This document shows positions 3,189 through 60,275 of a DNA stretch of 64,000 nt, one piece after another. The notes beneath the pieces were generated by a model. It had not been told where the DNA came from. It saw only the letters and a program-made list of their open reading frames with translations, and did not search any database. Made by a program: the position numbers and the translations under genes. This stretch comes from Notolepis coatsorum (taxonomy: Eukaryota; Chordata; Actinopteri; Aulopiformes; Paralepididae), in NCBI GenBank assembly GCA_963971535.1, contig OZ020598.1:98701674-98765673 (forward strand). Direction: 5' to 3'. The stretch's first letter is position 1, and every line of letters begins with the position of its first letter.

Positions 3189-3268
3189 GATTTGATGGGA
3201 TTCGAACTCACCAACAACGGACCGCAGGATCGCAGGACCGCTTCTGTGCCAGGTGAGCTATAGCGCCG
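3189..3268 (-). other. tRNA-like sequence with A and B boxes inside the MULE-like element
   Basis: On the minus strand a near-consensus A box (TAGCTCACCTGG) is followed about 40 bases later by a B box (AGTTCGAATCC), the arrangement of a tRNA gene. The total of about 80 bases fits a tRNA with a variable arm. The acceptor arms do not pair convincingly, so I do not call a functional tRNA. The second element copy keeps both boxes. It may be a captured tRNA or tRNA-derived SINE head. Confidence 0.55.
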
Positions 3269-4400: not shown

Positions 4401-4433
4401 ATTTGCTGATATACATTTGACTGTTAACACTTT

Positions 4434-9812: not shown

Positions 9813-10067
9813 ATAATGCATTTTATTTATAAGGCGCATTTCACACAAAAACACAAAAAAAGGCCACAAATCGGTGAATGAAAAAATTATAGGATCAAAT
9901 GAAAACTACTACTTACTAAACATGGATGTTTAAAAGTACTAAAAACCAAGAAAAAATATCAAACACTAACAAACATTCAGCACAGGCAATTGGGATGCTG
10001 CCATCTTTAAAAAAAGAAATATATATATATATTTTTTTAAAGCTCTGGGGCACTAGGTGGCCGGGCC

Positions 10068-10735
10068 GCGTGTACCTGTTCCGCAACAGTAAGTGACTTC
10101 CGGGGTAGGCCTGATTGGCCCCGACAGGCACGTGACGCGGCAAACTCAGGACGCGCAACGAGGCTGCTGAGAGCTGTCGCGCGGAAATAGGCTGTCTATT
10201 GCCATTCTCTAACACAAACTCTAACCTTAACCAGCTCCTTAACAGCGCCTAAACTTAACCGTTCTAACCTTAACCAACTCCGAAACAATGCCTAACCTTA
10301 ACCTTAACCATGCCTAACCTTAACCATAGAAAGAATATTGCCATTCTCTAAGACAAACTCTAACCTTAACCAGCTCCTTAACAGCGCCTAAACTTAACCG
10401 TTCTAACCTTAACCAACTCCGAAACAATGCCTAACCTTAACCTTAACCGGCGAAAGAATACACGTTAAAAAAAAAATCACGTTAAAAAAAAAGATTTGAT
10501 GGGATTCGAACTCACCAACAACGGACCGCAGGATCGCAGGACCGCTGCTCTGCCAGGTGAGCTATAGCGCCGAATGAGAGTCATGGCGTATTTGGACGGT
10601 TACGTAATTCCGTAAGCTCTGCCGCTCGGCTCCGCGGAGCGTGCCGCGCGGCAGAGAAAGTTGCGCGTCACGTGCCTGTCGGGGCCAATCAGGCCTACCC
10701 CGGAAGTCACTTACTGTTGCGGAACAGTTACACGC
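10068..10735. mobile_element. Long-TIR non-autonomous element with 9-bp TSD (MULE-like), copy 2
   Basis: 668 bp with TIRs at 10068-10139 and 10664-10735 that match copy 1 almost base for base. The flanking duplication is GGCCGGGCC (10059-10067 and 10736-10744). It contains the same two telomere-like units and the same tRNA-like block. It is inserted in the right end of a hAT, so it moved after that hAT. Compared with copy 1 it has small deletions in the CCTTAACC runs. Confidence 0.87.
10493..10572 (-). other. tRNA-like sequence in MULE-like copy 2
   Basis: Keeps the A box TAGCTCACCTGG and B box AGTTCGAATCC seen in copy 1, with AGAGCAGCGG in place of ACAGAAGCGG in the D-arm region. This is slightly more tRNA-like than copy 1. 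A T-run equivalent (A run on plus) lies just downstream and could terminate Pol III. Function is not shown. Confidence 0.5.
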
Positions 10736-10772
10736 GGCCGGGCCAAATAGTTTGGGGACCACTGTCTTAGTC

Positions 10773-16452: not shown

Positions 16453-16790
16453 TCTGAAATGACTTCTGAATAAATGAATGAATGATGAATGAATGAATGA
16501 ATGAAAACTTTATTTAACAGATTGCAGAATGGGTACAATACAGTACGGCTCAATACACAATTGTTAAGGGGATGCAGACCAGAGAAAGACTTTCGTCTTG
16601 TTTACATCAGGGTCCCCCATTTTCAATTCATCATAACATATATGACATACAGATAAGACAGTACTGCTACATCTATACATTTATGACATACCAGATTTAC
16701 AAATACAGTACTGTTTGTGATACAAAAAAGAGTCTAAAAAAGAGAGTATATACATTTGACGTAGAAACTGTACATTGGTGATTTAGTGAT
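16453..16790 (-). repeat. LINE-type 3' tail with (GAAT)n and dispersed repeat
   Basis: A GAATGAATGAATG run is followed by AAAACTTTATTTAACAG. Read on the minus strand this is an AATAAAG signal and an (ATTC)n tail. The following GGGTACAATACAGTACGGCT...GGTCCCCCATTTTCAATTC block recurs at 36349-36609 (both orientations) and 36890-37000. It lies in the intron between the first two integrase-like exons. Confidence 0.65.
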
Positions 16791-25699: not shown

Positions 25700-26309
25700 G
25701 TTAGGTCTTCATTTTAAGCAACTTTTAATTGATTTTAACAGTATGGTTAAGGATGCGAGAGCTGCCTATTTCACAAACTTAATCTCATCTAGCAAACTAA
25801 ACCCCAAAGTCCTATTCGACACCATTAATATCATTGTCAGTCCACAAACCCCTGTCACACCTGTTTTATCTGATAAGGACTGTCATGATTTTCTCCTATT
25901 TTTTGTAAATAAGGTTGCAAATGTCAGGGCAGGTATTACACCCTCCACCTCAATCCAACCGTTATCTCCCAACAGTCAGTCTACTCTGAATTCCTTCTCA
26001 CCCATTTCCCTCAACGACCTAACAGAGCTAGTGAGAAGCACAAAAACCTCCTCTAGCCCATTAGACACCATCCCAACCTCTCTACTAAAGGAAGTTTTCA
26101 GCACTATTGGTCCCAGTCTGCTTTCCATCATAAATCTCTCTTTGGTCTCTGGTCAGGTCCCCGCCTACTTCAAACAGGCAATCGTTCAGCCGCTTTTAAA
26201 AAAGCGAAGTCTGGACGCCTCGTTACCAAGTAACTATCGGCCCATCTCCAAATTATCATTTATGTCCAAGATTTTAGAAAAAATTGTTGCCAACCAGCTT
26301 ATATCCAGT
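25700..26309 (+). pseudogene. L2-type LINE, ORF2 N-terminal RT segment
   Basis: Encodes ISLNDLTELVRSTKTSSSPL, DTIPTSLLKEVFSTIGPSLL, VSGQVPAYFKQAIVQPLLKK and SNYRPISKLSFMSKILEKIV. The last block is the conserved RT start (NYRPIS.L....KI.E). The frame is open over about 200 codons. It is cut by a family A MITE exactly at a TTAA after QLISS, and nothing of the LINE is found on the other side. Confidence 0.85.
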
Positions 26310-27075
26310 TTAACACTTTGGCTGCCATGGGTTAAATTCATTATCAACCGTAGGTTGCCGGCTCTATTTGTCTATAGAGAAAGTCCCCTTCTTTGCAGGG
26401 CTATAACTTTTTAAATTCTATTGCTACATTGCCATTATTAGGGCCCATTCAAAGTCCTATATGTATTGTTCATTGTGTAGCAACGTTAAACTTTTTCATT
26501 CACATATTCATAGTGAAGTATGGTCTAATGTATAAGTATGTTTTCATCTCTTTCTGCAGCTTTCTCCAGAACGTGATCTATAGCCCCAAATACATTATAT
26601 TGATGATGCAATACAGTTTTATGGCAATCAGCGCGATATAAAAGGTACATAGAGGTTGTGCTGGACGGCCGTATTACTTCCGGGCACTCGCTATAGGTCC
26701 CGGCATTCTAGCTCGTCACGCTACACAGTGATCGATTGCCAATAACTCGATAAACAACATGATTTGGACGTATATACCATTATACAAGCTGGAGATGGAC
26801 CGGGTAAATTTACATCCCATAATGATAAGATTTCAACTCTACGATGATCGCCCAACGGCGCGCGGAGACTGGGGTGAGTTTCAGCCTGTAACGTTACCGT
26901 CTTCGATACTAACTGCTATTATCAACATTTGACCCACATTAGATGATTGGTATAACGCTGCCCACGGAATTATAAACGGCCCCTAGCCCATCCGGTCAAC
27001 ATCAGATGACGTGTAGTAACTTCTAGAAGTACGTCTAGTTGTAATTTTTTATATCGCGCTGATTGCCATAAAACT
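26310..27075. mobile_element. Family A MITE, rearranged snap-back copy
   Basis: The left end TTAACACTTTGGCTGCC and the following 330 bases are family A in reverse orientation. From about 26645 the middle of the element continues in forward orientation. GGCAATCAGCGCGATATAAA (26621 on) pairs with TTTATATCGCGCTGATTGCC (near 27050). The second TTAA end is missing. It is a half-inverted derivative, not a simple insertion. Confidence 0.75.
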
Positions 27076-28929
27076 GTGACCGTGCTGGAATATGACTGCC
27101 TTTTTCCGTTTTGTTTGATTAATACCCAGGGATTAAAGTTCTCCTCAATTTTATTCCAAATCGCGACGGATTTTCCGTCAATCTTCTACCTGCTGCATAT
27201 GATTTCTAGAGGCATACAATCTATTTTGATGTCAGTATTGGGTAGCCTATATAAACAATAATACGAGAGCATATACAAGAACAATGAATCTCACGCCATG
27301 TGTAGCCTGCCTATATGTGATCAATACAAACTTGAACTTGAATTCCATCATGTCTGTGTGCGGGTCACTGCGGGAACTCACAATGTAAATAAGAACGTGC
27401 ACTGAAAAGTTACAGTATATAGTTGGTTGATTATTTGTATGACAGTCAGTAAACCCTTGCAAAAAGTATCCGTTTTATTTAATGAATTGAAAACATGCAG
27501 CATGCCTTTCCTCCCGGCATGCAGCAACAACATGTATCAGGCAAATGCGCATCGCAACATTGACTGAGTGGAATCCCTTTCTATTCACATAACTGCATTT
27601 GTGATGGAGCTTTGACAGCTACAGTAACAGTCTATTGCTCGATCCATCTCCAATATCACGATGGACCGTGCCGGTGGCAAAGACCCGAGGGTGGAGAGGA
27701 CTTGAATGAATTCCATCATCATATTTATATGTTGTGTCTGTCCACTATGTTTGTTACTTTGTTATCCCCCCCCCCCCCTATCTATGTAAAGCGACCTTGG
27801 GTCTCTTGAAAGGCGCTATATAAAATGAAGCTATTATCATTATTATTATCACATCTGTGCGGGAGCTCACAAATAGACTGTTAGTCTCAGTGAAGTTTCA
27901 ACGGAGGTCATCTATTCTAACCAACAAATTGAAGTAGAAAGCATTTCGTGACCAATCTTATTTGGAAACATGACACAAAATAATTCACTTTTTATTTGAA
28001 ACAATATTTAATCGCGTTTGGAGGTTGGTGTTCTGCGTCTGCCCCCCCGTGCCAAACAAGCAGGCCAACCTCTTGTTCGCGTGTGAGCCCGTTATAATTA
28101 CACTACTGTCGCTATTTTACAATGAACTATAATGAATTACGGGGGTCATACAGAACACGCGCCAGTGTCTTTATTTCCGCGTTGAAACGAATGCATGTAT
28201 CACAGATGCTCTTTTTCAGGAACGCCCTGCTTCACATTCACACAGTTCCATTCACACCTGGGAGCTGCCCAGTACAACCACAGTTGACACCATTGGCCAC
28301 TGAGCAACTCCACTGGAGCAGTTGATTCAAGCCATGTCACATAGTTCAAGTTTGAAATGATTCTTTCTGTTTTGCTCCTGAGAGTGCTAGATACTGTACT
28401 GTACTGGTAATATTATTTATTTGTGTTAACTTCTGAATAAAACAACTTATTAAACACAAGTACATCTTATTGAACATTATTGTGATATTTCATTACCAAT
28501 TATCATAGAAAAACAGCTTTTTCAAACAGTCTGTAATGCATTTTGGAAACGGGAGATGGGCTCATGGTGTAATGGGCCACCTGGCCTGAGAAACATAAGG
28601 AGGAAAGAAAAAGTAAGGACTTACTTCTGGTCATTATTTGGGTAGAACACACATGTTTTGAATGCCTTCGGCAGGTTTTTTTTTCTTTTTTGGGCCATTT
28701 TAATCTAGATTAAATCCAGGATTGCAGATAGATTAATCTAGATTAAAAAAATTAATCTATGCCCACCTCTATATATATATACACTATAAGGTGAGACACC
28801 CATCATCCCCACATTGTAAAAAGAAATTATGTTTTTTCACGGGAAATTCACTATTTTACAGATTACTTTGGTTTTTCTACTTTAAGTATAAATGCCATAA
28901 AAATACAGTAAATTAACGATAAACATTTA
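27076..28929. other. Intergenic spacer with LINE-type tails
   Basis: No gene is supported. An AATACAAACTTGAACTTGAA segment near 27325 and a TGTAAAGCGACCTTGGGTCT...GGCGCTATATAAAATG segment near 27785-27830, followed by ATTATTATTATC, are typical 3' tails of fish retrotransposons, so small truncated copies lie here. TTAATCTAGATTAA repeats near 28705-28760 resemble ends of an old DNA element. Confidence 0.45.
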
Positions 28930-29887
28930 TTAACACTTTAAGTGCCGAAAACGTGTTTAGGCGTCTTTCCTAGCCATGCTAAAGTTGCCGCGGACGCCCT
29001 AACTCGTCTTTAATATCAATATTTCAAAATTCTGTGATCGAAATCATATTTTTCCTCCGCAGCCCTGAGACACAGTGCTGGCCTCCTCTCAAACCTCTAG
29101 CGGTTCAAGAGCGCCATCTGGTGGCCGATCGGCAGAAGCGCCAAACAGGAAGTCATGTGGATGAAGTGGTGATCGTCCATATTACTTCCGGGCACTCTCT
29201 ATAGGTCCCGGGACTCGATCTCGACACAATACATAGCGATCCGTTGCCAATAACTCGATAAACAACATGATTTGGACGTATATACTATTATACAACCTGG
29301 AAATAGATCCGGTATTTCGACATCCCATAATTGAAAACTGTCTTCTCCACGCTGATCGCCCAACGGCCCGCGGAGACTGGGGTGAGTTTTAGCATTTATT
29401 ATTACCGTGTTCGATACTAACTGCTATGATGAACATTTGACCCACATTAGATGAATGGTATAACGTTGCCCACGGAATTATAAACGATCCCCCGCCCATC
29501 CGGTCATCATCAGATGATACGTAGAAACTCCTAGAAGCACGTCCATTTGAAATTTTTCATCTGGCACCGATCGCTATCAAACTGTATTTCATCATCAATA
29601 TAATGCATTTGGGGCTATAAATCACGTTCTGGAGAAAGCTGCAGAAAGAGATGAAAACATACTTATACTTTAGACCATATTTTACTATGAATATGTGAAT
29701 GAAAAAGTTTAACGTTGCTACACAATGAACAATACATATAGGACCTTGAATGGGCCCTAATAATGGCAATCTAGCAATAGAATTTAAAATGTTATAGCCC
29801 TGCAAAGAAGGGGAACTTCTCCATGTTAAATAGAGCTGGCAACGGATGGTATATCATGAATTTAGCCTTAGGCAATCAAAGTGTTAA
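28930..29887 (+). mobile_element. TTAA-ended MITE, family A, full copy
   Basis: 958 bp from TTAACACTTTAAGTGCC to GCAATCAAAGTGTTAA, with TTAA borders. It is colinear with 4434-5363 over its length, including the CAATATTTCAAAATTCTG, TTTGGACGTATATA and TGGGCCCTAATAATGGCAAT blocks. No transposase. Confidence 0.88.
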
Positions 29888-30815
29888 ACGTCAACACTCT
29901 GTTACTTTCAAAGTAACAAACAATATGGTCGAAAGACAACGATAAACATCAAGGTCAACACTCTTTTTACTTTACCAACAGGTAAAAGAACTCGATTTTT
30001 AAGTCACGGTTCGGTACGGGTTTTCGATACAGTGGGGGAAAGTTTGGCTTTCCATGTTCCACTCAGGGGTGATGTAGTGTGCAGTAACTAATTGTACTTG
30101 TGTGTACACATTACACAAGACCAAATCCTGTTTGGCAAGTGCCAATACAAGCCAGCTGCCGTTGATTACCTCAATGGACAGCTTATTCTTTGGCAGAATC
30201 TCCCACCCGATCTTTCACCAGATTCGTCATTACATCAGGTGATGCTGTGGATTAGCCAAAAGTTGTTTAAATGAATGGGTGCTACAATTAAAAATAGTAA
30301 GTTAGGAAATTCAAATAATTTGTAGTAGTCAATTAAAGCAACACATGTTATCTGTAATGTAGAAATAGTTGTAAAGTAGCTTTTTTTGTTTTACTTTAGT
30401 GTCTTTGCACACCTGCATGTGTGGGACAGTTGTGTCGGAGTGTAGTAGAAAGCATATCCAAACGTGGAGCGCACACAGGTTTGTAAGTTCAGGAATGTAA
30501 CATATCAGGTCTTATACTTAATATCATTATAATTTACTTCAATAGCATGTTGGCATTATTTCCAACTGTAAACATACCATTTTCAATAAAGCGGCGAAGA
30601 TATCCTGATACGCGGCATTTTGTGTCAACTGAACAGTCAGTCGTCATCAAATGACCTACATTGACAGACATAAAATAACATGGTGGTTACTGATACTGGA
30701 TAAAGATATGAAACCTCTGCCATATAATAGCATTAAAGAAAGGCTTGGATAAAAAAATATTACATGACATGAATATATGTATATATATTGTATACAAAAA
30801 GATTAAATTGGAAAC
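29888..30815. other. Unassigned intron-like sequence
   Basis: Contains a possible exon-like frame (plus, 30092-30274, with KCQYKPAAVDYLNGQLILWQ) that I do not recognise, AT-rich runs, and an ATATATGTATATATATTG stretch at about 30772. If the G2E3-like gene continues on the minus strand, its remaining HECT exons should lie here or farther left, but I could not identify them. Confidence 0.3.
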
Positions 30816-30822
30816 ATGTATT

Positions 30823-30876
30823 GCAGGGCTATAATCAACTGCTCCCTCTTGTGGAAATAGCAGGGCCAGTGTCAGG
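30823..30876 (-). pseudogene. G2E3-like exon, distal half (left of the 7.6 kb insertion)
   Basis: The minus strand reads LLFPQEGAVDYSPA, which matches what follows the QLRRGLKET..W..L..RPD motif in G2E3-like HECT proteins (..PLLFPRE.E..Y.P). The proximal half of the same exon is at 38468-38551, on the other side of the inverted-repeat element. A frame offset exists at the junction. Confidence 0.5.
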
Positions 30877-31587
30877 AGGCCGGGAGCCAGGTCCACCCCT
30901 CAGGATGTTTTTTGCTACCTTTTTTTCATTATTATTTCCTGTTATCCCATACCTTGGGCCATCACAAGTTGATAATGACCACCCCCAAATCATCCCTGTT
31001 TGGCCTCAGGGGCCAAAAAACCCTCTTTTTGGGAAAAGCTTCTGGTGAAATTATGTAATTGCAAATATGAGGGTACTGCAACTGCATAAATGGTCAAATA
31101 AGTCTGAAACTTTGCAAGGTGTATCCTGACACATAGGGGGAAAGTATCAGAATAAGTATCAGAATAATACTCTGGGGCTTACTACCTTTCTATTGTCAAA
31201 TATCACTCTCAGAATACCCCAAAAGACAAAAAAATACGTCTGTCCGCCTGACAAATTGTCATCAAAAGTGATAATTTTCAAGTATTTTATTATACATGTT
31301 GCTGCTTCACATGGATATAAAAGCTTCCCACATTTATAAGCTTCAATTTAAGTCCAAGATGACCTTTATATCTAGAATATTACACCTGCTATGACCAAGG
31401 TTCTCCGTTGTACCTCAAATCGAGAAAATAGAACATATTTCTTCTTTTTTTTTTTTATATCTAAAAAATATATTAAACAAGAGTTGAGACTTAAGTAATG
31501 TAATGCTATACTATCTGGAGTTAATTACATGAAAAGTGAACAATGTTACACCCCCTGGTGGACCGGGGTATCACAGTGCAACATAAA
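30877..31587 (+). repeat. Left terminal inverted repeat of the 7.6 kb element
   Basis: Matches 37762-38463 in reverse over its length with scattered substitutions and small indels. It ends inside at ATCACAGTGCAACATAAA. It contains CCTATGTG/CACATAGGGG and long T runs. No strong internal tandem repeats. Divergence between the arms suggests the insertion is not recent. Confidence 0.9.
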
Positions 31588-31882
31588 ACAGATTGAGCAA
31601 AGGAGGGTTCAGTCACAGAAAACCCGGTAACCAAATATGAAATGTATTGAACAAAGTCCAGGCAACACAATGAACAAAATGACTAGTGTGCAGTCTGTTA
31701 TCAAGAAGTAAATGGAATCAACATGACAAAACTGTAGATAGATATTCTATACAGCCAAATGGAGAAAATAAAATACAGCTCAAACTAAAAATAGAATACA
31801 TTTCTTTGGTTCTTAGACCCCTTTTGCTGCTTACTCTATTTGCTGTGATCCATTCGCTGACTATAAAACTATGATGATAATT
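31588..31882. other. Inner spacer next to the left TIR
   Basis: AT-rich, no frames of note. Lies between the TIR and the 3' end of the XPG-like gene and may hold its 3' UTR. Confidence 0.35.
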
Positions 31883-34800
31883 TTAATCATCATTTTCCTC
31901 CTCCTCCTCCTCCTCCTCATCCTCCTCATCATCATCCATATTTGTATGGATTTCATCTGCTAAGTCATCTTCATCTGTTTCTTCTTCTGCCAAGACATCG
32001 ACGAGGGCTTTGGGGATGACGTCGTCACCCTCACACCACAGTGGTTCTAGCTTACCAGTCTCTGTGTTAATGTGAAATCCATGGTCGAGAGGGGATGGGA
32101 TCTCCGGGTAGTGCTCATGAGCCCTCTTCCAGACACATGCCTGGAAGTTGACTCTTCTCATGTACTGTAAGAGGACCCTCTTGCAAGGTGGGAAGGTGGA
32201 GAGGTCAACAGAAGCACAAGGCTTGAGCCACAGATCTTGACTTTAATCTCTCTTGCCTCATCAACCTTCTTGATTCGACGACTGAAACCATAGAGGCGAC
32301 AAGTGAACTCTTCAACATCACTGAGAATCCACTCATCAAGCTCCCAAGAGTTCCCCACTTCAGCAAAGATCTGGATAAACTTTTCTGATTCAGAATCTTC
32401 ATCGGTCGCACCTTCCCTTTGCCTTTGAATGCTGATGTGCAGTCAGCACCAATGAATGCATGCAATCAATCAAATTGATTTATATAGCACATTTAAACAT
32501 GACACTTGTCAACCAAAGTGCTTCACAAAGGATGCTTGGTTCATACACATACAGCTCATTATAGTAATATTCCACAATTATTACATTGATAGTAATAATG
32601 GCACACAGTCATAAATTCACCAACATGCGCATTTGTTATACATGCAGGACTCTTTGAGACAGACGTATGCGTATTACCGCTGCCATGTTTGGCGTGGAGC
32701 ACCCGGGGGGGGGGGGGGGGGCTGGTTGACGAGACAGCCTTGGCTCCCCCCTCCAGCACGCATACGAGTTAGCTGCCATCACCAACGTGAGGCGCTGGGC
32801 CATACACGTAGGTGGGGGGGAGGGGGCTGGGGGTGCCGCATGCCACTCTTATCTCCAAGAGGGCCTTCGACTCCAGCAGCTCTCAGTTCGACCTTGGAGT
32901 CGTCCAGGAATTTGTCGTCCAGGAATTTGTTTTGGCTGACTGACTGGCAACATTTCCCCAGTCACATCGATTTAAATTTGATTTTGAGTAGAGTGAATTA
33001 TAACTCTATTGGTTTGAGTGGAGTGAGTTTTAACAACTCCGTCCAAATGACTGAATGCATTAGTCCAAGTGTCCAAGTGTCTTAATCAGTTCATTTTGGT
33101 AGGTCCTGTGCGCGGTAAACAGATCCAAAATCTTCTTGTTGCAATCCCAAACGCTTCGATAATCCAAAAGTCCACGACTTCAAGTTGGTAGCCCGATTGA
33201 AGAGGATGTTGACAGTTGATGACTTGGCATAATACAGGAGGATAAAGAAAATGTCAGTATTTTGCTCTGACTGTTGTGATGTGAGGGCTTTTGGTTTGGA
33301 TATACTGCATGTAAATGATTACCCTCACATCCGTTTCTTCATGTTTTGAACAGATCTCAGGTAGAAGCTCTTTAGACATCACTCCAGCAGTGCATGCTTG
33401 ACCAGCCTCTACGAAAATAACAGGCCTTCAGAGGATGTCTTTCATCATATCTTCAGAGCTCCAGTGATCCAGAAGTAAATGAATGAGGGCCTTCTTGTTT
33501 CATCATTTGTGAGAAAACCATTCCAATCAGTGGGCCGATTAACATTTAGCCCCTTCACCATAAAACATTCACCACAACCTCTGTGATCCATCTCAGCTGA
33601 TTTGTGAATGAAGACGGTCAAGGTAAGTGTCTGTACTGAATACTGTTTCAGCTGCAGCCGGTAGACTTTTGAAGGTGGGCTCTGATATATTCTTCATTGT
33701 TCGTGGCACATCACGCATGTAGAATGAGGAGTTTCCATCTTGAATGAGAGCACATTGGCTTGGGCATTCTCAGCATATTTGATCATGTAGTTCATTCCGT
33801 TTGCTTTGTTGGTTTTTGCGGAAAAAAACAATCGATTGTTGAGATGGAGTATGGCATCAGAGTCAAGGGATAGGTCATTAGGTCAGAGATGCTTATTTGT
33901 GACAAGATCTGAAAGATGAACCCACTTGTGGCCTTGTACTGGATCACTTTCTGGTTTGATGCCACAAGCTTCCTTTTAGGTGTGGTAGATGACATTGTCT
34001 TGAATCTGTTCCTCTTGATAGGTTCAAAGAAAAGGACTTTTTTTTTGTCTGAAGTCGATCACAGATGAACTTCTCTTTTTGAGTTTTGCCATTTTTCAGG
34101 GCATTCACATCATTGCGCACCTCTTCTGGCATAGCTGCTCCTGAAGTCAAACTTGTCAAGGGCTGAGAAGTATCAAGCTGAAATGGGTTGATAAAACTCT
34201 GAAATGCTTCAACTGTTTGCTGGACTTGCTTCTCAGACAGAGTGATTTCACGTGGTTTTAGATCACGTTGCTGCTTCTCTGTATGTTCACCTCTGTCGCT
34301 TGTCATTTTCCACATCTCTTCTACATACTCTCCTTTGGCATGGGCAGTCAGGATATGACGTTGGCTGGCTTCATAGTTACTGGTGATTCCACAGATCCCT
34401 GCAGAATATGTTCCAGACCCTGAGTTTGACTTAAGCCATTTCATAGCAGTGTCTTCTATTGTTTTGTCAGTGTGGCAGCGGTTGGCTGGGATATGTGATC
34501 TGGATACACTGATTGCTCCAGCACGCAAACGTTTCTCAGATCCTGGATGTGTTTCCTCAATGTGTTCAAGATAGTATCCCATGTATGTGAGGAATCTAGC
34601 ATAGTTCTGCTGGTCTGAGCAGAAGAAAAGGTCTGGCATGTTGTTTAGGGTGGCTTTGTATCCTTCATAGTCATTGATTTTGATTGCCTTATTCATTGAC
34701 AGGACGAGCCAGGTGCAGTCCATGTATTCCATCCAAAACTATCCAGTTTCTCCCAGCTCCCCATTTCTCACGGCTTCTCTGAATGCATGATATTCTGCCA

Positions 34801-34975
34801 TGTGCTGAGATACATCTTCTGATGAGAGCACTTCAGCGAGTAGATTAATTAATTCAGAGTGAGATTTTCCAAAAATGCAGTCCATTCTGCAGAGAGTGGT
34901 TCATGAGTTTCCAGATACTTGTCATAGAGGAGTCTCTCTAGAGCTTCCAGCATGGATTTGTGTGTGTTCATCGCT
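31883..34975 (-). pseudogene. XPG/FEN-like nuclease family gene, broken (inside the 7.6 kb element)
   Basis: From 5' to 3' on the minus strand: SMLEALERLLYDKYLETHEP; then CTWLVLSMNKA, SDQQNYARFLTYMGYYLEHI, NYEASQRHILTAHAKGEYVE and AAMPEEVRNDVNALKNGKTQ (frame 33944-34732); short pieces near 33500-33995; then HAFIGADCTSAFKGKGKVRP; NSWELDEWILSDVEEFTCRL; and MRRVNFQACVWKRAHEHYPE with an acidic end. HA..G.D..SAF.GKGK is the XPG-type GCD/helix-hairpin block, with GAD in place of GCD. NYARF..Y, MPEEV and YQ..IW+R are features of a large family of uncharacterised animal proteins. Several frameshifts make it non-functional. The N-terminal part is missing and the tail is a Glu/Asp run encoded by a TCC microsatellite. 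Confidence 0.7.
32466..33500. other. Insertion within the XPG-like pseudogene
   Basis: Begins AATCAATCAAATTGATTTAT, a common fish retrotransposon tail, and includes a G run at 32705-32720. No matching far end found. It separates the GCD block from the upstream coding pieces, so it probably inserted into the gene. Confidence 0.4.
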
Positions 34976-35115
34976 CTGTGCTTGTGTGTGGAGAGATCAG
35001 TGTTCAGTGTTCTGATGGCCTGGGGGAAGAAGCTGACTCTAAGTCTCTCTGTTCTTGCTGTATGTATGCAGAGGTGCTTGCCTGACTGCAGCAGCTTGAA
35101 CAGGCTTATGTGCCA
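34976..35115 (-). pseudogene. LINE (L2/CR1-type) ORF end fragment
   Basis: The minus strand reads LFKLLQSGKHLCIHTARTER then RLRVSFFPQAIRTLN, the same ORF end type as at 7045-7745. It abuts the XPG-like gene (HKSMLEALERLL), so it marks the 5' break of that gene. Confidence 0.6.
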
Positions 35116-36239
35116 ATATACATTCATTTAGATCCAATGTTTCACATTTCATTGACATCTAACCTCAGACATGGACTAATATCCCAGACTGGGGGGGGTG
35201 GCTGATTCTTGGCAAGGTATCCAGGCATCTTGTCGTCTCTTTGACACCTTGACTATACCGTAGCATTGCAACCATCAGAAAGTCAGTATATTCATTACAA
35301 CAGCAAAATATTGTACACACACAGACACCATAATTTATATCCCACTTCTGCTCTCACTAGTCTCCCACTCCCGCTCTCACTAGCTAGCTACATTGGGCTG
35401 GCAGCTAACAATCTCATTGGGCTGGCAGCTAACAATCTACAAGCTAACTAGCTAATGTTATCACTCTAGAAGTAGAGTTGCTAATAATTATAATTTATTT
35501 TCTTAATAATTACAATTTCATAATTTCTCCCCCACTTCTACTCTCACTAGCTAGCTACATTGGGCTGGCTATATTAGCTAACAATCTAAAAGCAGGCATT
35601 AAAGCGTTCCGTCTTGGGACGGATATCCGTCCATTTGATTTGGAGATTCCGTCATTTGATTCGGAGTCGTGACGGATTTTAACCTGAGCCAATCAGAGGC
35701 GTCAAATATCATTTTTTCCCCTACCGCGGCCGCACCAAACAGTCATTTGGCTCTGCGGCTCTGCAGATACCCCCTACTCCTTTAACCCGCCTCTGCTGTG
35801 CTCAGCACCAATGGGAAGCGGCCATTTTTCGTTTTGAGTTTCTGAAACTCCGCAATTGCTCTCTAGCTCTACTCGAGAGTAAACTTGACTCATCAACATG
35901 CGCCAACTTTTCCGAGACAGTAAGTTCATTTGACTTATTCTAGTCTAAAGAAACATATATATTACTATTGCTATTGATAAATCTAGTTAACGTGAATGCC
36001 ACAAAACGAATGCCTTTTGTTAATCAGAACGTTATTTACGCGACAAGTTCAACCAGTGTGTTGTTGTTGGTGGTGGTGGTGGTGGTGGTGGTGTTGCGTG
36101 TGTGAGCTTGCGCCTCCGTGTATGATAAATGTGAATGTTGATAAATCTAGGTAACGTTAATGCCACAAAACGAATGCCTTTGTTAATCAGAACGTTATTT
36201 GCGTTATCAATTGTTTTTAAGCTCAATAAACGTCTTTCT
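35116..36239. other. Unassigned interior of the 7.6 kb element
   Basis: Contains CTCTCACTAGCTAGCTACAT duplications (about 35350-35590), two similar ATTGGGCTGGCAGCTAACAA copies, and a GC-rich stretch around 35650-35900 with GAGCCAATCAGAGGCG (CCAAT-like). This is followed by ATGCGCCAACTTTTCCGAGA and a GTAAGTTC donor near 35898. This could be a promoter plus very short first exon, but no downstream exon is recognised. A GTGGTGGTGGTGG run lies near 36070. Confidence 0.35.
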
Positions 36240-36348
36240 ACCATTTGTCCGGGAGATCTCTGGGTAACAGTACTGTATATTTGCATATCATATATGTCAC
36301 AAATGTAACATTACTATCTATATACCTGTAGTATGTCATGTATGTCAC

Positions 36349-36609
36349 TATGAATTGAAAATGGGGGACCCTGATGTAAACAAGACGAACGTCTTTCTCT
36401 GGTCTGCATCCCCTTAACAATTGTGTGTATTGAGCTGTACTGTATTGTACCCATTCTGCTATCTGTTAAATATTGATTGATTGTCATTAACAGATTGCAG
36501 AATGGGTACAATACAGTACAGCTCAATACACACAATTGTTAAGGGGATGCAGACCAGAGAGAGACTTTCGTCTTGTTTACATCAGGGTCCCCCATTTTCA
36601 ATTCATCAT
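36349..36609. repeat. Inverted pair of a dispersed repeat
   Basis: About 119 bases (36349-36467, with CAAGACGAACGTCTTTCTC) recur inverted at 36491-36609 around a 23-base TA-rich spacer. The same unit stands alone at 16510-16640 and again at 36890-37000. Likely two copies of one short retro-derived repeat in head-to-head orientation. Confidence 0.75.
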
Positions 36610-37761
36610 AACATATATGACACACATGACATACAGATAGACAATACTGCTACATCTATACATTTATGACATACCAGATTTACAAATACAGTAGCCTATT
36701 GTTTGTGATACAAAAATAGTCTAAAAAGAGTATATACATTTGACGAAGAAACTGTACATTGGAGGTGGGATGGGGGGGTTGTAACTGTACATTGGATTAT
36801 TGACAACCTTACTTGGTCCCAAGAAGAGGGTCTTGTGTATTAAATAAAGTTTTCATTCATTCATTCACTCTGGATCTTGTAAATCCAGTAGCAATACACA
36901 CAATTGTTAAGGGGATGCAGGCCAGAGAAAGGCGTTTGTCTTGTTTACATCATCAGGGTCCCCCATTTTCAATTCATAGTGACACTTATGACATACACAT
37001 CATACATAACATCATGACATTTATGACATTTATGACATGCATGCCTTACAGGTATATAGTAATAGTACTGTTACATTTGTCACATATACGATATGCAAAT
37101 ATACAGTACTGTTACCCAGAGATCCTAACAGTAAATATATACATATGATGAGGAGGAGACTGTACATTAGGAGGGGGTGGGTGGTAAAAAAGATATACAA
37201 ACGGTGGGGAGGAGACTGTCCATTGTTGTTGTACCATAATTGTGAAACATGTTTAGTCCCTTGTTTGTATGATAACAAGCCGTTTAGTTCATGGTTCAAA
37301 GTAATGGGAAAAGGGTGCTATCTCGCCATCAATCAGAAGCTAGCCACAAGACTTGCATTCACGCTCTCCAGCACACAGCCTCCCTGCCTGGCACAACAAC
37401 CACAACAGTAGGGTCTATAGTCACAGTCAGGACAGTAGGCTCTACAAGTAGGCTCCCTTAAAACGCTAACGCTATTAAAAAAAAAAAAAAAATACAGTGG
37501 AGGTTAAAATAAGAATATGACTTGGCCAGAAAAAAAGTTCAGTCAGGAGAATTTTTTTTGCTTTAATCCCTGTAAAAGCTAACGTTAATGTTATCACTCT
37601 AGAAGAAGAGTTGCCACCTTTCATGTAAAAATATATTGGACAGTCAATCTCTTCCCACAGCCAGAACAATAGATCAACTTACCCACAATTGTCTTTGCTG
37701 AATAACTGACATGAAACAGGGTAATGGTTTTGGTTGGTTGGTGTAACCCGGTCAGCACTGC
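36610..37761. other. Dispersed-repeat remnants and spacer
   Basis: Further partial copies of the GGTCCCCCATTTTCAATTC repeat (36890-37140) with ATTCATTCATTCACTC and AATAAAG nearby, then AT-rich spacer up to the right TIR. No gene. Confidence 0.5.
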
Positions 37762-38463
37762 TTTATGTTGCACTGTGATACCCCGGTCCAACAGGGGGTG
37801 TAACATTGTTCACTTTTCATATAATTAACTTCAGATAGTATAGCATTACATTACTTAAGTCTCAAATCTTGTTTAATATATTTTTTAGATATAAAAAAAG
37901 GGAGAAAAAAAAGAGAGAAGAAATATGTTCTATTTTCTCGATTTTAGGTACAATGGAGAACTTTGGTCATAGCAGGTGTACTATTCTAGATAGAAAGGTC
38001 ATCTTGGACTTAAATTGAAGCTTATAAATGTGGGCAGTTTTTATATCCATGTGAGGCAGCAACATGTATAATAAAATGATCACTTTTGATGACAATTTGT
38101 CAGGCGGACAGAATGTTTTTTGTCTTTTGGGGTATTCTGGGGGGGATATTTGACAATAGAAAGGTAGTAAGGCCCAGAGTATTATTCTGATACTTTTCCC
38201 CTATGTGTCAGGATACACCATGCAAGGTTTCAGACTTATTTGACCATTTATGCAGTTGCAGTACCCTCATATTTGCAATTACATAATTTCGCCAGAAGCT
38301 TTTCCCAAAAATAGTTTTTTTTTGCCCCTGAGGCCAAACACGGGGCTGATTTGGGGGTGGTCATTATCAACTCGTGATGGCCCAAGGTATGTGATAACTG
38401 GAAATAATAATGAAAAAAAGGTAGCAAAAAACATCCTGAGGGGTGGACCTGGCTCCCGGCCTA
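37762..38463 (-). repeat. Right terminal inverted repeat of the 7.6 kb element
   Basis: Reverse complement of 30877-31587. Ends GGCTCCCGGCCTA before CAGG. Frames that seem open here (GREPGPPLRMFFATFFSLLF type) are also open in the left TIR. Since the arms also share long non-coding stretches, this is probably coincidence of sequence identity. Confidence 0.9.
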
Positions 38464-38467
38464 CAGG

Positions 38468-38551
38468 GCGTTGACTCAGCATGGCCCACATTGGCGTCTC
38501 TTTAAGACCACGTCTGAGCTGCTTAATTTGTCTTAAGACACGTCCAATGAC
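38468..38551 (-). pseudogene. G2E3-like exon, proximal half (right of the insertion)
   Basis: After an acceptor (CAATACCAG on minus) the exon reads VIGRVLRQIKQLRRGLKETP then MWAMLSQRP and is cut at CCCTG by the 7.6 kb element. QLR+GLKET..W.LL..R is a signature of the HECT-like region in G2E3-type proteins of fish. Phase fits the exon at 38667. Confidence 0.6.
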
Positions 38552-38795: not shown

Positions 38796-38899
38796 CTTAA
38801 AGACACAGAGGGAAGTGAAAGAGGAAATACTGTTAATGCTTATGTCGATGCTGTTTTTGTTTTGTTCTTGATTTATTGTGATGTTTCTTCTTGACTTGT

Positions 38900-39855
38900 T
38901 TAACACTTTGATCGCCAGGCTTAAATTCATAATTTACCATCCTTCGCCAGCCCTATTTAATATGGAGAAGTTCCCCTTCTTTGCAGGGCTATAACTTTTT
39001 AAATTGTATTGCTAAATTGACATTACTATGGCCCATTCAACGTCCTATATCTATTGTTCAGGGTGTAGCAACGTTATACTTTTTCATTCACATATTCATA
39101 CTAAAATACGGTCTAAAGTATAAGTATGTTTTTATCGTTTTCTGCAGCTTTCTCCAGAACGTGATTTATAGCCCCAAATGCATTATATTGATAATGAAAT
39201 ACAGTTTGATAGGAATCTGCGCGAGATAAAAAATGTCAAATGGACGTGCTTCTAGAAGTTACTAAGTATGATCTGATGTTGACCGGGGGGGGGGGGGGGG
39301 GGGGTCGTTTATAATTCCGTGGCCAACGTTATATGATTCATCTAGTGTGGGTGATATGATCATTAGAGCAGTTAGTATCGAACACGTTGAAAAATAACGC
39401 TGAATCTTACCGTAGCTTCCTCGGGCCGTTGGGCGATGAGCGTGGAACAGAAATGTTCCTATTATGGGATGTAGAAATATGCGATCCATTTCCAGGTTGT
39501 ATAATAGTATATACGTCAAAATCATGTTGTTTATCGAGTTATTTGCAACCGATAGATGTCCAGTGTATCAAGATGGAGTCCCGCTAATGATAGCGAGTGC
39601 CCGGACGAAATATGGGCGAGCACCACTTCATCCGCATCACTTCCTGTTTGGGCGATCCGCCGATCTTGAACCGCTCTTGAACCGTTGGAGAGTTGAGAGG
39701 GGCTCAACAGTAGATCTCAGGTCTCCGGGGGAGAAATATGATTTCGATCACAGATTTTTGAAATATTGATATCAAAGACATGCTACAGCGTCTTTGGCAG
39801 AATGAGCATGGCGGGGAAAGACGTCCTACAGCGTTTTTGGCGATTAAAGTGTTAA
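38900..39855 (-). mobile_element. TTAA-ended MITE, family A, in a G2E3-like intron
   Basis: Reverse orientation, 956 bp, from TTAACACTTTGATCGCC to GGCGATTAAAGTGTTAA, with TTAA at both borders. A G run is at 39285-39303. The block with the recurrent long frame is at 38981-39229. Confidence 0.88.
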
Positions 39856-40023
39856 AGAAGACGTGTCCGGCCCATGGGGACATTAACGTGTGTTGTTGGG
39901 CCTTACAAATGAATTTGATTTAGCTTTTTTTCACAATATAATACAGCACACACAAGGGGGGGAAAAAGGGTGGAAACTTTCTTGCTTCAGTGTATAAATA
40001 ATGGGGTTAGATTGAAAACATAC

Positions 40024-43468: not shown

Positions 43469-44942
43469 TGTAACCACCACCAAAACCCTTTATTAATCCC
43501 GGAGGAAAACTAGTCTCAATAGTTATAAAATAGTGTATTGATTAACACTTTGATCGCCATGGTTCAAATTCATAATTTACCATCCCTAGCCAGCTCTATT
43601 TGTCTATGGAGAAGTTCCCCTTCTTTGCAGGGCTATAACTTTTTTAGTTAGTATAGAATACGTTAGAAAATAACGCTGGATCTTAACATATCTTCCTCGC
43701 GCCGTTGGACGATCAGCGTGGAGTAGACAGTTTTCGATTATGGGATGTTGATCCTGATGAACCATTTTCAGGTTGTATAATACTATATACGTCCAAATAA
43801 TGTTGTTTATTGAGTTAGGGCGAGCGATTGATTATCCAGTGTGTTGAGATGGAGTCCGGCTACCGATCGCGAGTGCCCGGACGGATTATGGATGAGCACT
43901 TCCTGTTTGGCGCGCCCCTCCCCCCTGCCGATCGGCCACCAGATGGCGCTCTCGAACCGTTACAGTTGAGTGGAGCTCACCAGTACATCTCATGTCTCCG
44001 GAGGAGAAATATGATTCCGATCACAGATTTTTGAATTATTGATATCAAAGACGAGTTACGGCGTCTTCGGCAGAATGAGCATGGCGAGGAATGACGTCTA
44101 AACACGTCATCGGCGATTAAAGTGTTAAGATAAGACTAAACCAGACACTTATCTACCATTGCAAAGTCTAATTAAGCCAGTAATATAGGTAAAATAGAAG
44201 ATTAAGGTGACAATATGTGTAATTTACTTAGAAAACTAAGATAACTTCCAAAATAAGACTATAGACTATTTATAATACAACAGTTTGTTATAAAACCAAC
44301 AAATAGGTCTATTTGGTATCTGGAAAGCCATAGAATTCAGGAAAGGACTTGAATTAACTGTCTCAGTCAATTAATAACTAAACTCTAATTCTTCAGTTAG
44401 TAAAATCAAATATTGTACCTTTAAAACGTTAAACTTTAGAAATATAACTCTTTCCCTTAAAATAGACAGGACTGCCCCTTTAAGAATCAAGATGGCCGCC
44501 GACCCTAATTCAAAATGGCCGCTATGAGCTTTAGCCAATCAGGCCGCAGAGATCCGCCCCCTGACGAACTAGGTCGACGTTCTCTCAGGGGCGGGGTTTA
44601 GCCTTTAAGAGAGGCTGCACCGAAAGAGACGGAAGGAAGCTCTTGAATCTTTTTCATGCACAGCCAAACGGGAAGAGGACTGCCTGAGACGTTTTTGCCA
44701 CGAGAACAAAGGATCCGTTGTCGCCCTGACAACAAAGACTCCACAACCGACGCTCCATTGAAGATTGTTACTTTTTAACTACTTTTGATTAGTCTGATAT
44801 TAGTGACTGGCGGCATAGTGCTTTGTTACACTAATATCATTGCGTTTTTCATTGATTGAACCAGATCATTCTTGTACTTTGAATAAACCAGATCTGGGAA
44901 ATAACCAACCTCTCATTTGATTCTTTTCTCCGTCGTGCTACA
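43469..44942 (+). repeat. Candidate solo LTR, interrupted by a MITE
   Basis: Starts TGTAACCACC and ends GTCGTGCTACA (TGTA...TACA). Within it, CCAATCA (44534) and GGGGCGGGG (44590) look like promoter boxes, and TGAATAAACCAG (44879) looks like a poly(A) signal shortly before the end. That is the U3-R-U5 layout of a retroviral-type LTR. No matching TSD is seen, so an alternative is a CpG-rich promoter. Without the MITE it is about 890 bp. Confidence 0.4.
43542..44128 (-). mobile_element. TTAA-ended MITE, family A, internally deleted
   Basis: TTAACACTTTGATCGCC to GGCGATTAAAGTGTTAA, 587 bp. About 370 bases that include the recurrent-frame block are missing after GCAGGGCTATAACTTTTT. TTAA borders intact. 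Confidence 0.85.
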
Positions 44943-51975: not shown

Positions 51976-52921
51976 TTGATCGCCATGGTTCAAATTCATA
52001 ATTTACCATCCCTAGCCAGCTCTATTTGTCTATGGAGAAGTTCCCCTTCTTTGCAGGGCTATAACTTTTAAAATTCTATTGCTAAATTGCCATTATTATG
52101 GCCCATTCAATGTCCTATATCCATTGTTCAGGGTGTAGCAACGATATACTTTTTCATTCACATATTCATACTAAAATATGGTCTAAAGTATAAGTATTAT
52201 CGTTTTCTGCAGCTTTCTTCAGAACGTGATTTATAGACCCAAATGCATTATATGCATGATGAAATACAGTTTGATAGCGATCTGTGCCAGATAATAAATT
52301 TCAACTGGAGGTACTTCTAGAAGTTACTACGTATCATCTGATGATGACCGGATGGGCGGGGGGTCGTTTATAATTCCGTGGGCAGCGTTAGATGATTCAT
52401 CCAGTTTGGGTCATATGATCATCATAGCAGTTTATATGGAACATGTTAGAATATAATGCTGCAACTCACCGTGGCTTCCTCGTGCCGCTGGCAGATGAGC
52501 GTGGAACAGAATTGTTTCTATTATGGGATGGAGAAATGCCCGATCCATTTCCAGGTTGTATAATAGTATATACGTCCAAATCATGTTGTTTTTTCGAGTT
52601 ATTTGCACCGATCGATGTTCACTGTGTCAAGACGGAGTCTCTCTAACGATAGCGAGTGCCCGGACGACATATGGATGAGCACGTCCGGTTCGACGAGTCA
52701 TTTCCTGTTGGCGATCTGCCGATCGGCCACCAGATGGCGCTCTTGAACCGCTAGAGAGTTGAGTGGAGCTTTGCAGTATATCTCAGGGCCCCGGAGGGGA
52801 AATATGATTTCGATCACAGATTTTTGAAATATTGATATCAAAGACGAGTTACGGTGTCTTCGGCAGAATGAGCATGGCTAGGAATGACGTCTAAACACGT
52901 CATCGGCGATTAAAGTGTTAA
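51976..52921 (-). mobile_element. TTAA-ended MITE, family A
   Basis: Right border GGCGATTAAAGTGTTAA is intact; the left lacks the TTAACACTT and begins TGATCGCCATGG. Otherwise colinear with 38900-39855. Inserted in a Gypsy RT gene at TTAA. Confidence 0.82.
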
Positions 52922-53193
52922 TATTCTCATTCAGATCTTTGGGATCAAGGCAGACTCGTAAGGCATTTGTGGGTTTTTTTCTTAACACGTGTTATGGAAT
53001 TCACCCAGTCTGTGGGCTCCTCCACTCGCTCAATCACACCCATTTGTGTCATTCTGTCCAGCTCTTTTTTCAAGCCAACTCTGAGAGGTGCTGGCACTCT
53101 TCGTGGGGCATGCACTACAGGCTTAGCATCATCTTTGAGCTTGATCTTGTAAGTGAAAGGTAATAGGCGAGTCAATATATGGTTTAACCCCAA
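52922..53193 (-). pseudogene. Gypsy reverse transcriptase N-terminal fragment
   Basis: The minus strand reads PFTYKIKLKDDAKPVVHAPR, RVPAPLRVGLKKELDRMTQM, GVIERVEEPTDWVNSI, then LDPKDLNEN, the conserved opening of Ty3/Gypsy RT. It runs into the family A MITE. It is a different lineage from the Gypsy at 12355-16112. Confidence 0.8.
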
Positions 53194-53905: not shown

Positions 53906-54162
53906 CTACTCATCATCATCTTCAGGATCCTCTGGGAGAAACTTGTTATGTGGATTGTCACATTCATGAAGTTGACATGGTCCACAGACAGTAGTACAAG
54001 GTAGTCCATATTTTCTGCATGAGCAGCGAAGTGTCTTGCAGGCAGTGGTACAGTTACAATGAATGACCTTCAAGAGACTGTCTGGAGCAGCATTCATTGT
54101 TGACATGAGTGGGACAAATCTATTGTCCTGCAGGTTCCAGCCCCAGTCTAGAGCATCTATAC
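53906..54162 (-). pseudogene. XPG-like gene, Cys-rich C-terminal part
   Basis: Continuing from the hAT insertion, it reads ALDWGWNLQDNRFVPLM, APDSLLKVIHCNCTTACKTL, RCSCRKYGLPCTTVCGPCQL, HECDNP, and ends in an acidic tail. C.C...C....C.C+..GL.C...C..C....C.N is the conserved cysteine-rich tail of the family and may bind zinc. The frame is open to a stop at 53906. Confidence 0.75.
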
Positions 54163-54389
54163 CAGGGGTAGGCAACCCTAGGCACGCGTGCCTGCATAGG
54201 CACGCAGGGGCATTTTCATAGGCACAGGGGGCAGCATAAAAAAAGATATTATTATTTTTTTGCTTTGAAATATTATAGTGAAATATTTTGCACTGTTGTC
54301 GCATTTATCTTGTTGAAATCCTCCCACGGGTTCTTTTTACTACCACATATTTAATTGAGACCCTTTATTTGTTTATTATTTCAATTTAG

Positions 54390-55830
54390 CTGGAAATACA
54401 TTGCTACATTTACATTTACATTTACATTTAGTCATTTAGCTGACGCTTTTATCCAAAGCGACTTACAAGTTCTGTACGACAAGCCATCAGGAAGAGCACA
54501 ACTCTATCAGCTGAGTAACAATGTTCATCAAAGTGTTGAGTGCTACAGTGTACGTTAGTTTATTAGGACAAGTGCATGACAGTATGGTTAGTTAGGGTTA
54601 GATTTTTATTTTTATTTTTTTTAATTCAGATAATGGTTGAAGAAGTGAGTCTTTAGTCGACGGCGAAAGATTGGACGTGTTTCGGCTGTCCTAACTGGGG
54701 TGGGTAGTTCATTCCACCATTGTGGGGCAAGGACTGAGAATAGGCGACTTCTCTTTGATGACCCTCCCGGAGCTTGGATAGGAGTAGGTCTGAGGCGGCC
54801 AGAAGATGCAGAGCGTAGGGGTCTTGAGGGTGTGTAGTTAGAGACCATTGACCGGAGGTAGGCGGGAGCAGTTCCCTTTGCCGCACGGTATGCTAGGTCA
54901 AGGGCCTTGAAGCGGATTCGTGCAGCAATGGGGAGCCAGTGCAGGTCCCTAAGAAGTGGGGTGACATGGGCCGACTTCGGTAGGTTTGAGATCAGGCGGG
55001 CCGCTGCGTTCTGAATGAGTTGAAGAGGCTTAGTGGCAGTGGCCGGGAGGCCAGCGAGCAGTGCGTTGCAGTAGTCGAGGCGGGAGATGACTGTTGATTG
55101 GACGAGGAGTTGGGTGGCTTCTTTTGTCAGGAAGGGGCGTATCCTTCTGACGTTGCTCAGGAGGAATCGGCAGGTTCTGGTTGTCGCTGCGATGTGAGCA
55201 GAGAAGTTCAACTGGTCGTCGAGGACAACACCAAGGTTCTTGGCGGTCGGGGACGCGGTCACAGCTGCATTCTCGACTGTGATGGAAAGGTCGGTCAGGG
55301 GGGAGGATTTGGCCGGCAGGTGGAGCAATTCTGTTTTGCTTAGGTTCAGTTTGAGGTGGTTGGTCGTCATCCAGGCGGAGATGTCGGACAGACAGGCCGA
55401 GATCCGCTCAGAGACGTGGATATCTGAGGGAAGGAAGGAGAGGAAGAGTTGAGTATCGTCGGCATAACAGTGGTAGGAGAAGCCATGAGACGTGATAATG
55501 TTACCCAGTGATTTAGTGTAGAGGGAGAAGAGAAGGGGTCCTAAAACCGAGCCCTGGGGGACACCCGTCCGCAGGGGGCGGGTGGCCGACAGGGTCCCTC
55601 TCCATGACACTTGGTAGGAGCGGTCATTGAGGTATGATGACAACCATGTCAGCGCAGAGCCAGCCACTCCCATTCCTGCGAGGGCCGCGAGGAGGATCTG
55701 GTGGTTGACTGTGTCGAAGGCTGCAGATAGATCTAGGAGAATCAGGACAGAGGAGAGGCCTTTCGCTTTTGCTAAGTGAAGTGCCTCTGTGACCGCAATG
55801 AGGGCTGTCTCTGTGGAGTGTTACTGTCAT
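54390..55830 (-). pseudogene. L2-clade LINE, RT to 3' end
   Basis: ILLDLSAAFDTVNHQILL, then GVPQGSVLGPLLFSLYTKSL and HCYADDTQLFLSFLPS (catalytic YADD), LGVVLDDQLNFSAHIAATTR, LDYCNALLAGLP, LHWLPIAARIRFKALDLAYR. The frame is open from 55830 to a stop at 54621, an unusually intact piece. The 3' UTR ends with ACTTTGGATAAAAGCGTCAG-type sequence and an (ATTTAC)n tail on plus. 5' truncated. Confidence 0.9.
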
Positions 55831-56162
55831 TCAGTAACATTTGCAGAGCCTTATAACAAAAACATTATTACGGTCACCATTGTGACCAGTGGGATTAATC
55901 AACACATTTTATTATTTATTTTTCTATTTCATTGAACATTGCACATGTTAAAAGCCATATTTTTACTCAAAATGTGAGTATTATCAAGTCAACTTGTGTT
56001 CTTAAAACAATGACAATAAACATAGTTTTATTAGGTTGAAATAATGTGGTTGTGTACTTATTTTTCTGTTAACTTATTATGGATTGAAAACTGAAAACCT
56101 TAATGCACAGTAACTGAACTCAATATTTGTAAGTTCTGGTAACTTATTATTATTTATTTTTT
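55831..56162. other. Interior of the hAT left of the LINE start
   Basis: AT-rich; starts TGTTACTGTCATTCAGTAAC and ends TTTTTTTACAGTGTAG, perhaps a small DNA-element remnant. No gene. Confidence 0.3.
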
Positions 56163-56603
56163 TACAGTGTAGTCTTGCGATCAATCAAAACTTATTTACA
56201 CGATATACCTCACATTCACCCTCCATTCACATCCTGGTGTTCTCCTGGTGTTCTCCATTAGGCCTGTAGGTGGAGCTATGACAGCACTCGTACAGTACAC
56301 ACACCGATGGTGTGTGATGTGTCCAAAAATGAATGGGCAAATGTGAGTGAAATGGTCGCACTGTATGCAGCTGTTTGTCTGCATTGCATCCCCCCCCCCA
56401 ACTCAGATTTAGGGTTGATACAACCATCATAATAATATTGTTAATAATAACAATAACAATAATGATGTAATAATGTAAAAATTATCATTAAAAATACCTG
56501 ATTATGAGAAAAAAAATTACGATGCATGGAATATTGTTGAGGCACACTAGTTACAACTATATTTCAAACAGGCACTCCATGTCAAAAAGGTTGCTGACCC
56601 CTG

Positions 56604-59250: not shown

Positions 59251-60275
59251 TTTCCCGGGAGGGCGACGGACCCGACCGTGCGAAGAGGCACCCAAGCAAC
59301 TCAACGCACAGGGTGAGCAGACCGTGGCCTGACCCCACTACTACACACACGCACAACCCGCATGCCACCCGGGAACGAACGGAGGGAACAACCTCGTTAC
59401 TGCCCCCGAAACACGGGGTCAAGGGCAAACCCAACCCCGTGGCAAGGCCGTAGCAGCGGAGCGCGAAGGAAGGCCCAGACCCACCAAAGGGACTGGACCC
59501 CCTGGAACGGGGGCCCGGAGAAGTCCATGATGCCAGCATCAAGACCCCACCAGGTGGGCACTTAGTGGCCCCGCCCCCCACATCGCCAGCGTATTCGGAC
59601 AAAGGCCCCTCAGCCGAGCGGGCCCTGTCCCCCCAATAGTCCACCGCCTGGCACACTGACCCTGCAGAACAGGCAATCAGCATGGCCGTAAGCACACAAA
59701 AAAGGTTAACCAACGGAAGCAGGCAGCGCACCGGGGAAAAACCAGGCAACAGGCTGTTAACCCGAGCCTGGAGACTGCGGACGAGACAGGCGCCAGAGGG
59801 GACAGCTGAACACAGCCGCCCCGGCGGAAGGGGCGTATGCTGGCGTTGTTGCATGACCGAGCCTCCATTTAAAAAAAACCCACCCAGAGGGGTTGAGGCA
59901 GAGAAGGCTGACACGATTGGCAGACGTCATGAATGTGCAGGGGCACCCTCAACCGGGTAACCCGGGAGTTGACACTGCTCCAACACACCAGGGAATCAAC
60001 CACCTTGGTGTTACCCAATGCGGTGGTTGTTCCTATAACCCCTCAAGAAAAAACTCCAAAACACACCTGCGGGTATACACTGGCTATACCGCAGTACAAG
60101 TGTTTCAGTTTTCAAAAAAGGGTTATCCCAGGCCTACGGGTCGACGAAACATTACCTCGGACCGGGCCCGGCGATACGGGAAGCACAGGGTCACCAGAGG
60201 AGGTCAAAGACCACCCCAACAGGCCCCGCTTCGCCATGCGTGAGAGAGGAGCGAAAAGAATGGAGAACCAGCCCC
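59251..60275. other. C-rich region upstream of the XPG-like gene
   Basis: Base use changes: the plus strand is C/A-rich with many CCC runs. Open frames here are long in several phases but have no family resemblance. If the XPG-like gene has 5' exons they lie here or beyond. Nothing else supported. Confidence 0.35.

Follow-up and report, generated by a model that had tools for sequence, protein, structure and literature searches.

The window analysed here is a 64,000-nucleotide stretch of the Notolepis coatsorum genome (contig OZ020598.1, positions 98,701,674 to 98,765,673). At about 31 to 38 kb it contains a unit with long inverted ends, which interrupts an exon-like sequence and carries a broken reading frame resembling XPG nucleases. 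The locus raises the questions of whether this unit is a single DNA transposon, to which type it belongs and whether the nuclease takes part in its movement. A first-pass annotation, made from the letters of the window, had proposed an Academ-like or novel transposon. We concluded that the unit very probably belongs, as a dead and non-autonomous copy, to an AcademX-type family of cut-and-paste DNA transposons, in which a transposase is fused to an XPG/FEN1-type nuclease and the target-site duplication (TSD) is 3 bp. This filing is based on TSD length and domain layout rather than on comparison with Academ reference sequences.

Ends of the Unit

The annotation had described inverted repeats of about 0.7 kb at the two ends of the unit. 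The two arms (30877-31591 and 37758-38462) aligned with 90.7% identity over 730 columns, of which 662 were identical and 28 were substitutions, the remainder being gaps. CAGG stood outside both ends, as annotated (30873-30876 and 38464-38467). The window copy by itself fits a 3-bp and a 4-bp TSD alike, and the length of 3 bp comes from the family comparison described below. The family end sequence is TAGGCCGGGAGCC. Among 15 left ends compared, the window copy and one other have G as the first base in place of the family T. The final G of CAGG most likely belongs to the element, as its mutated terminal base. Because the TSD is 3 bp (CAG), the element extends from 30876 to 38463. Thus, the annotated single unit with long terminal inverted repeats (TIRs) stood, and its length changed from 7587 to 7588 bp.

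30876..38463, no strand: entire element of 7588 bp, a copy with an internal deletion and interruptions (TIR alignment, family ends and empty sites)
30873..30875, plus strand: left TSD, CAG (family ends and the single-CAG junction at eight of eight empty sites)
38464..38466, plus strand: right TSD, CAG (same basis)
30876..31591, plus strand: left TIR (TIR alignment); first base G, versus T in 13 of 15 family left ends
37758..38463, minus strand: right TIR (TIR alignment), terminating in ...GGCTCCCGGCCTA

Empty Sites and Duplication of the Occupied Site

We searched the genome with 297 bases from the right and 303 bases from the left of the unit, each including CAG. Besides the window itself, these flanks matched a second occupied copy and eight more genomic places (on contigs C3161, C878, C13 [two], C23 [two], C6 and C1626). 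At all eight unoccupied places, the two flank matches were adjacent, had the same orientation and overlapped by exactly 3 bp, and the unit was absent. These sites prove the insertion, and the unit inserted as one piece. The annotated single long-TIR DNA transposon within exon-like sequence is borne out, and two independent insertions, which the annotation had named as a refuting outcome, are excluded. On the right side, the empty sites were 97-98% similar to the window in seven cases and 90% in one. The sequence that bears the insertion, with at least eight further copies, belongs to a repeat or gene family that expanded recently.

When the window flanks were joined with one CAG, the sequence ...KETPMWAMLSQRPDTGP... 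was restored and the downstream LLFPQEGAVDYSP stretch lay in another frame; the annotation had noted both the recreated motif and the persisting frame offset. The interrupted exon may belong to a G2E3-like gene, as annotated; the HECT model matched a neighbouring frame weakly (E 0.012, 15.7 bits; cut-off 23.9). The two halves, as obtained by joining the flanks, are as follows.

38465..38527, minus strand: upstream half of the host exon-like sequence (IKQLRRGLKETPMWAMLSQRP)
30825..30872, minus strand: downstream half of the host exon-like sequence (..LLFPQEGAVDYSP)

The second occupied copy (L013, C43:98598760-98605942) has flanks identical to those of the window copy (299/299 and 303/303). It is also found on the contig of the window copy, in opposite orientation and at a distance of about 127 kb; the occupied site itself was therefore duplicated. 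The two copies diverged after the duplication: an insertion of 1,979 bp (35594-37572) entered the window copy, and one of about 980 bp entered L013 at another place. The L013-specific insertion (about 1367-2345 in element orientation) is flanked by the 8-bp repeat ATATTGGC, and its site is empty in the window copy.

Family Copies and the Target-Site Duplication

The 3.42-Gb assembly contains at least 40 matches to the arms (40 of 333 candidates scored, both arms of one copy being counted apart), a number far beyond chance. A 3-bp direct repeat lay directly outside the TAGG...CCTA ends in 13 of 15 family arm pairs and a 4-bp repeat in none. When the pairing of flanks was permuted in 20,000 trials, the number of pairs with 3-bp repeats averaged 1.5 and reached at most 7. 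The direct repeat that the annotation had seen around the unit therefore stands at 3 bp (CAG), and a duplication of 4 bp was rejected as the family rule.

This count leaves out L013, as the duplicate of the window copy, and L028, the right flank of which is the same as that of L024. It also omits the single-end stretches (L016, L019, L020, L021, L022, L025, L026, L041, L044, L046, L047 and L048), L045, in which the end bases of the arms are absent, and L035 to L040, in which an arm is absent or partial. The arms at C1:77921696/77936752 (15.7 kb apart) and at C30:102526305/102555822 (29.5 kb apart) were rejected as pairs; neither had a 3-bp repeat in its flanks.

Three copies of 5.06 to 5.12 kb (L009, L010 and L011) are bounded by the TSDs ATA, TTT and TTA, respectively. 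They are 98.4-99.1% similar in the pieces compared with L011, and in the 5-kb copies the left and right arms of one copy differ by about 4%. A short copy of 2955 bp (L015) has the TSD TTA. Short copies such as this one carry the arms without the reading frame, an outcome that the annotation had listed as refuting; it occurs here in a trivial sense, as DNA transposon families normally include such copies. A full-length relative at C13:113453747-113461699 measures 7,953 bp and has the TSD CTA. Its arms are 98.4-98.7% alike, and its two overlapping reading frames encode 470 and 1273 amino acids.

The Window Copy Is an Internally Deleted and Interrupted Derivative

We compared the window copy with the full-length relative. 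The broken XPG-like frame reported by the annotation lies on the minus strand and matches residues 441-1028 and 1078-1270 of the 1273-residue frame. Besides two nested insertions, frameshifts break the copy.

33260..34977, minus strand: remnant of the transposase-nuclease gene, frameshifted, covering the end of the transposase part and the first part of the nuclease (tblastn, residues 441-1028)
31904..32465, minus strand: gene remnant with the helix-hairpin-helix motif LHAFIGADCTSAFKGKGKV (tblastn, residues 1078-1270)
34959..34979, minus strand: internal-deletion junction, about 3.05 kb removed, N-terminal part of the protein (comparison with the full-length relative)
32466..33199, no strand: nested insertion A, 734 bp, replacing 75 bp of the gene, also present in L013
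35594..37572, no strand: nested insertion B, 1979 bp, with ends CAGGGATTAAAGC / reverse complement of AGGCATTAAAGC and the 7-bp flanking repeat GCTTTTA, absent from L013

Relative to the full-length copy, about 3.05 kb is missing from both the window copy and the 5-kb copies. L009, L010 and L011 share an identical deletion junction, from which the junction in the window copy is no more than about 15 bp away. The first frame (470 amino acids) had no tblastn match in the window copy at E 1e-3, and the second frame is missing up to residue 440. The deleted part contains a conserved Asp (residue 367 of the second frame, in the motif STFDLGV from 364), which we take for the first catalytic acid of the transposase. 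Because the deletion removes the first frame and this part of the second, including Asp 367, the window copy is, judged from its sequence, incapable of making active transposase. We infer that the 5-kb copies moved in trans. The window copy is thus an internally deleted, later interrupted, non-autonomous element, not a complete one. Its length of 7.6 kb is accidental, since inserts of 1979 and 734 bp enlarged a deletion derivative of roughly 5 kb.

We take insertion B to be hAT-like. It contains a palindrome (36285-36672), which has a partial match at 16511-16778.

The Transposase-Nuclease Protein of the Relatives

In the protein collection, 23 of 40 homologues were single chains of 1,501-1,629 amino acids, and the break between the two frames of the full-length relative therefore probably reflects a mutation or an intron in this one copy. 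The nearest named protein, from Coilia grayii, was 87% identical over 88% of the region searched. Predicted structures of relatives showed a transposase fold like those of hAT, RAG1 and Transib, followed by a nuclease of the FEN1/EXO1/XPG type, the acidic residues of which were among the most conserved alignment columns. The occurrence of both parts in one chain, together with these models, supports the annotated idea that the nuclease belongs to the mobility machinery.

The nearest to the transposase model among the solved structures compared was hAT Hermes, with middling Z scores and 6-9% identity in the rows listed. Searches with Foldseek by itself gave no match at E <= 0.001. The likeness of the nuclease to FEN1/XPG lies in its predicted fold, and its sequence similarity is below Pfam detection: neither XPG_I nor XPG_N was listed in separate searches at E up to 0.1, 1 or 10. 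Profile-profile comparison of a single sequence with FEN1 gave no significant score, 23 of 200 shuffles being as high. When a FEN1 profile was run against the family protein with hmmsearch, 7 of 2,000 shuffles scored as high (1,499 were reported), at a raw score of at most 4 bits. Useful matches were absent from viral-contig scans with two protein parts, phage tblastn and NCBIfam, from a scan of the genome contigs with human FEN1, and from PDB sequence searches with the element's protein. Circumsporozoite matches in PDB were set aside, being confined to a tandem-repeat stretch. PF20231 (DUF6589) weakly matched 6 of 24 long relatives (best E 3.7e-5). In the Pfam searches, helicase models were absent for both the full-length relative and the 24 aligned relatives.

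In a 55-sequence alignment, the G and H of a G-x-F-H motif (GTFH) were invariant. In the transposase model, the His comes directly after one of the core strands, apparently where DDE enzymes carry their second catalytic Asp. Because an invariant His sits at this presumed place, the nuclease could do part of the cutting. A two-enzyme cut-and-paste machine, in which the fused FEN1/EXO1-type nuclease would supply strand cleavage beyond the reach of the transposase half, is conceivable on this reading, and we consider it improbable.

Classification and Alternative Explanations

The AcademX nuclease is of the XPG type; hAT elements make TSDs of 8 bp and Transib elements of 5 bp. The family shares with hAT (Hermes), RAG1 and Transib the predicted fold of its transposase half, whereas its 3-bp TSD differs from those of hAT and Transib. 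It shares with FEN1/EXO1/XPG nucleases a predicted fold and conserved acidic residues; in contrast to them, the nuclease here makes up the C-terminal portion of a transposon-encoded protein. As far as excerpts of PMC10045372 show, AcademX has TSDs of 3 or 4 bp and AcademH, the other Academ lineage named there, of 9 or 10 bp, a difference related to the encoding of a nuclease or a helicase. The present family resembles AcademX in its TIRs (here with 0.7-kb arms), in its nuclease, here fused to a putatively DDE-like transposase, and in its TSD; a length of 3 bp in 13 of 15 pairs agrees with neither AcademH nor the 8 bp of hAT. The window copy differs from AcademX in being an internally deleted, interrupted derivative. 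Thus, the Academ-like half of the annotated alternative held as far as it was testable, more precisely as AcademX-like, and a novel type is unsupported. Nuclease-carrying Academ-like transposons are already known, and the window copy is an ordinary shortened, decayed member. Academ elements are reported from zebrafish, medaka and stickleback in an excerpt of PMC4746887.

Could the family belong to another superfamily that acquired an XPG-like nuclease independently? The basis of the filing in TSD length and domain layout, the proximity of the transposase fold to hAT Hermes and the weak matches to DUF6589 (PF20231) speak for it. We nevertheless judge it unlikely, given the TSD of 3 rather than 8 bp and the tie, in the same excerpts, between short AcademX TSDs and the nuclease (PMC10045372). 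Alternatively, the XPG-like gene could be a repair gene captured from the host and carried along as a passenger that plays no part in mobility. The broken state of the window copy would fit this. However, the transposase and nuclease form one continuous protein in the single-chain homologues, and the conservation of the acidic residues also argues against a passenger, which makes this explanation unlikely.

The arms of the window copy are only 90.7% alike, as might be expected if an unrelated repeat had inserted twice in inverted orientation around a host XPG-like gene. The empty sites, which lack the whole unit, already refute that origin. Further, other loci with 3-bp TSDs show this gene between these arms, and the 5-kb copies also show a difference between their arms; we consider two insertions next to impossible. 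A single insertion, very probably of the AcademX type, best accounts for the locus. For the genome, this element is ordinary mobile DNA. The known nuclease-carrying Academ-like transposons gain a well-defined fish family, for which precise ends, empty sites, deletion derivatives and a full-length copy have been established; these could help to test the role of an XPG/FEN1-type nuclease in transposition.

A Possible Course of Events

By analogy, the mode of movement was most likely cut and paste. A complete relative would supply the protein in trans, and its DDE-type transposase half would bind the 0.7-kb ends and excise the element. The nuclease half, to go by nuclease families of this type, may trim or cleave branched DNA (flaps or ends) at excision or joining. 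The element would then be joined into a target site whose strands had been cut 3 bp apart; the 3-bp duplication itself is observed. The window copy would have landed in the exon-like sequence of a repeated fish gene; duplication would have copied the occupied site to its second place on the contig, and the window copy would then have decayed.

A Second, Distant Relative and Other Features of the Window

A second, distant relative of the transposase-nuclease gene lies at 53906-59337 on the minus strand, in several frames.

58546-59337, 57468-58610 and 56547-57467, minus strand: frames of the second element, a distant relative of the same kind

Residues 801-1458 of the homologue P0039 matched 58499-56628 with 25% identity (E 5e-45), and GGFH stands in place of the family's GTFH at 58.5-59.3 kb. 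The FEN1 profile matched VFDG and the hairpin motif, two stretches that stand in the expected order, with a low score: 1 of 2,000 shuffles scored as high (1,027 were reported), and the raw score was at most 4 bits. No inverted-repeat pair was found by blastn within 52-64 kb, and a Pfam search of this element gave no useful match. The frame at 53906-54304 is perhaps its cysteine-rich end, and a LINE-like reverse-transcriptase frame (54621-55820) perhaps interrupts it.

Outside the unit, the inverted repeats 28930-29894 and 38891-39855 were rejected as parts of the element; they are copies of a separate, dispersed repeat of about 950 bp, which occurs in the window seven times, complete or in part and in either orientation (413-1386, 4408-5363, 26308-27077, 28918-29894, 38891-39862, 43541-44136 and 51976-52924). 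A direct repeat of about 0.7 kb (2734-3441 and 10061-10745, 96% identical) has inverted ends of about 80 bp (2734-2812 versus 3360-3438) and an internal tandem unit of 139-145 bp. Further, a 5S ribosomal RNA match over the full model length was detected at 60277-60394 on the minus strand (66.8 bits).
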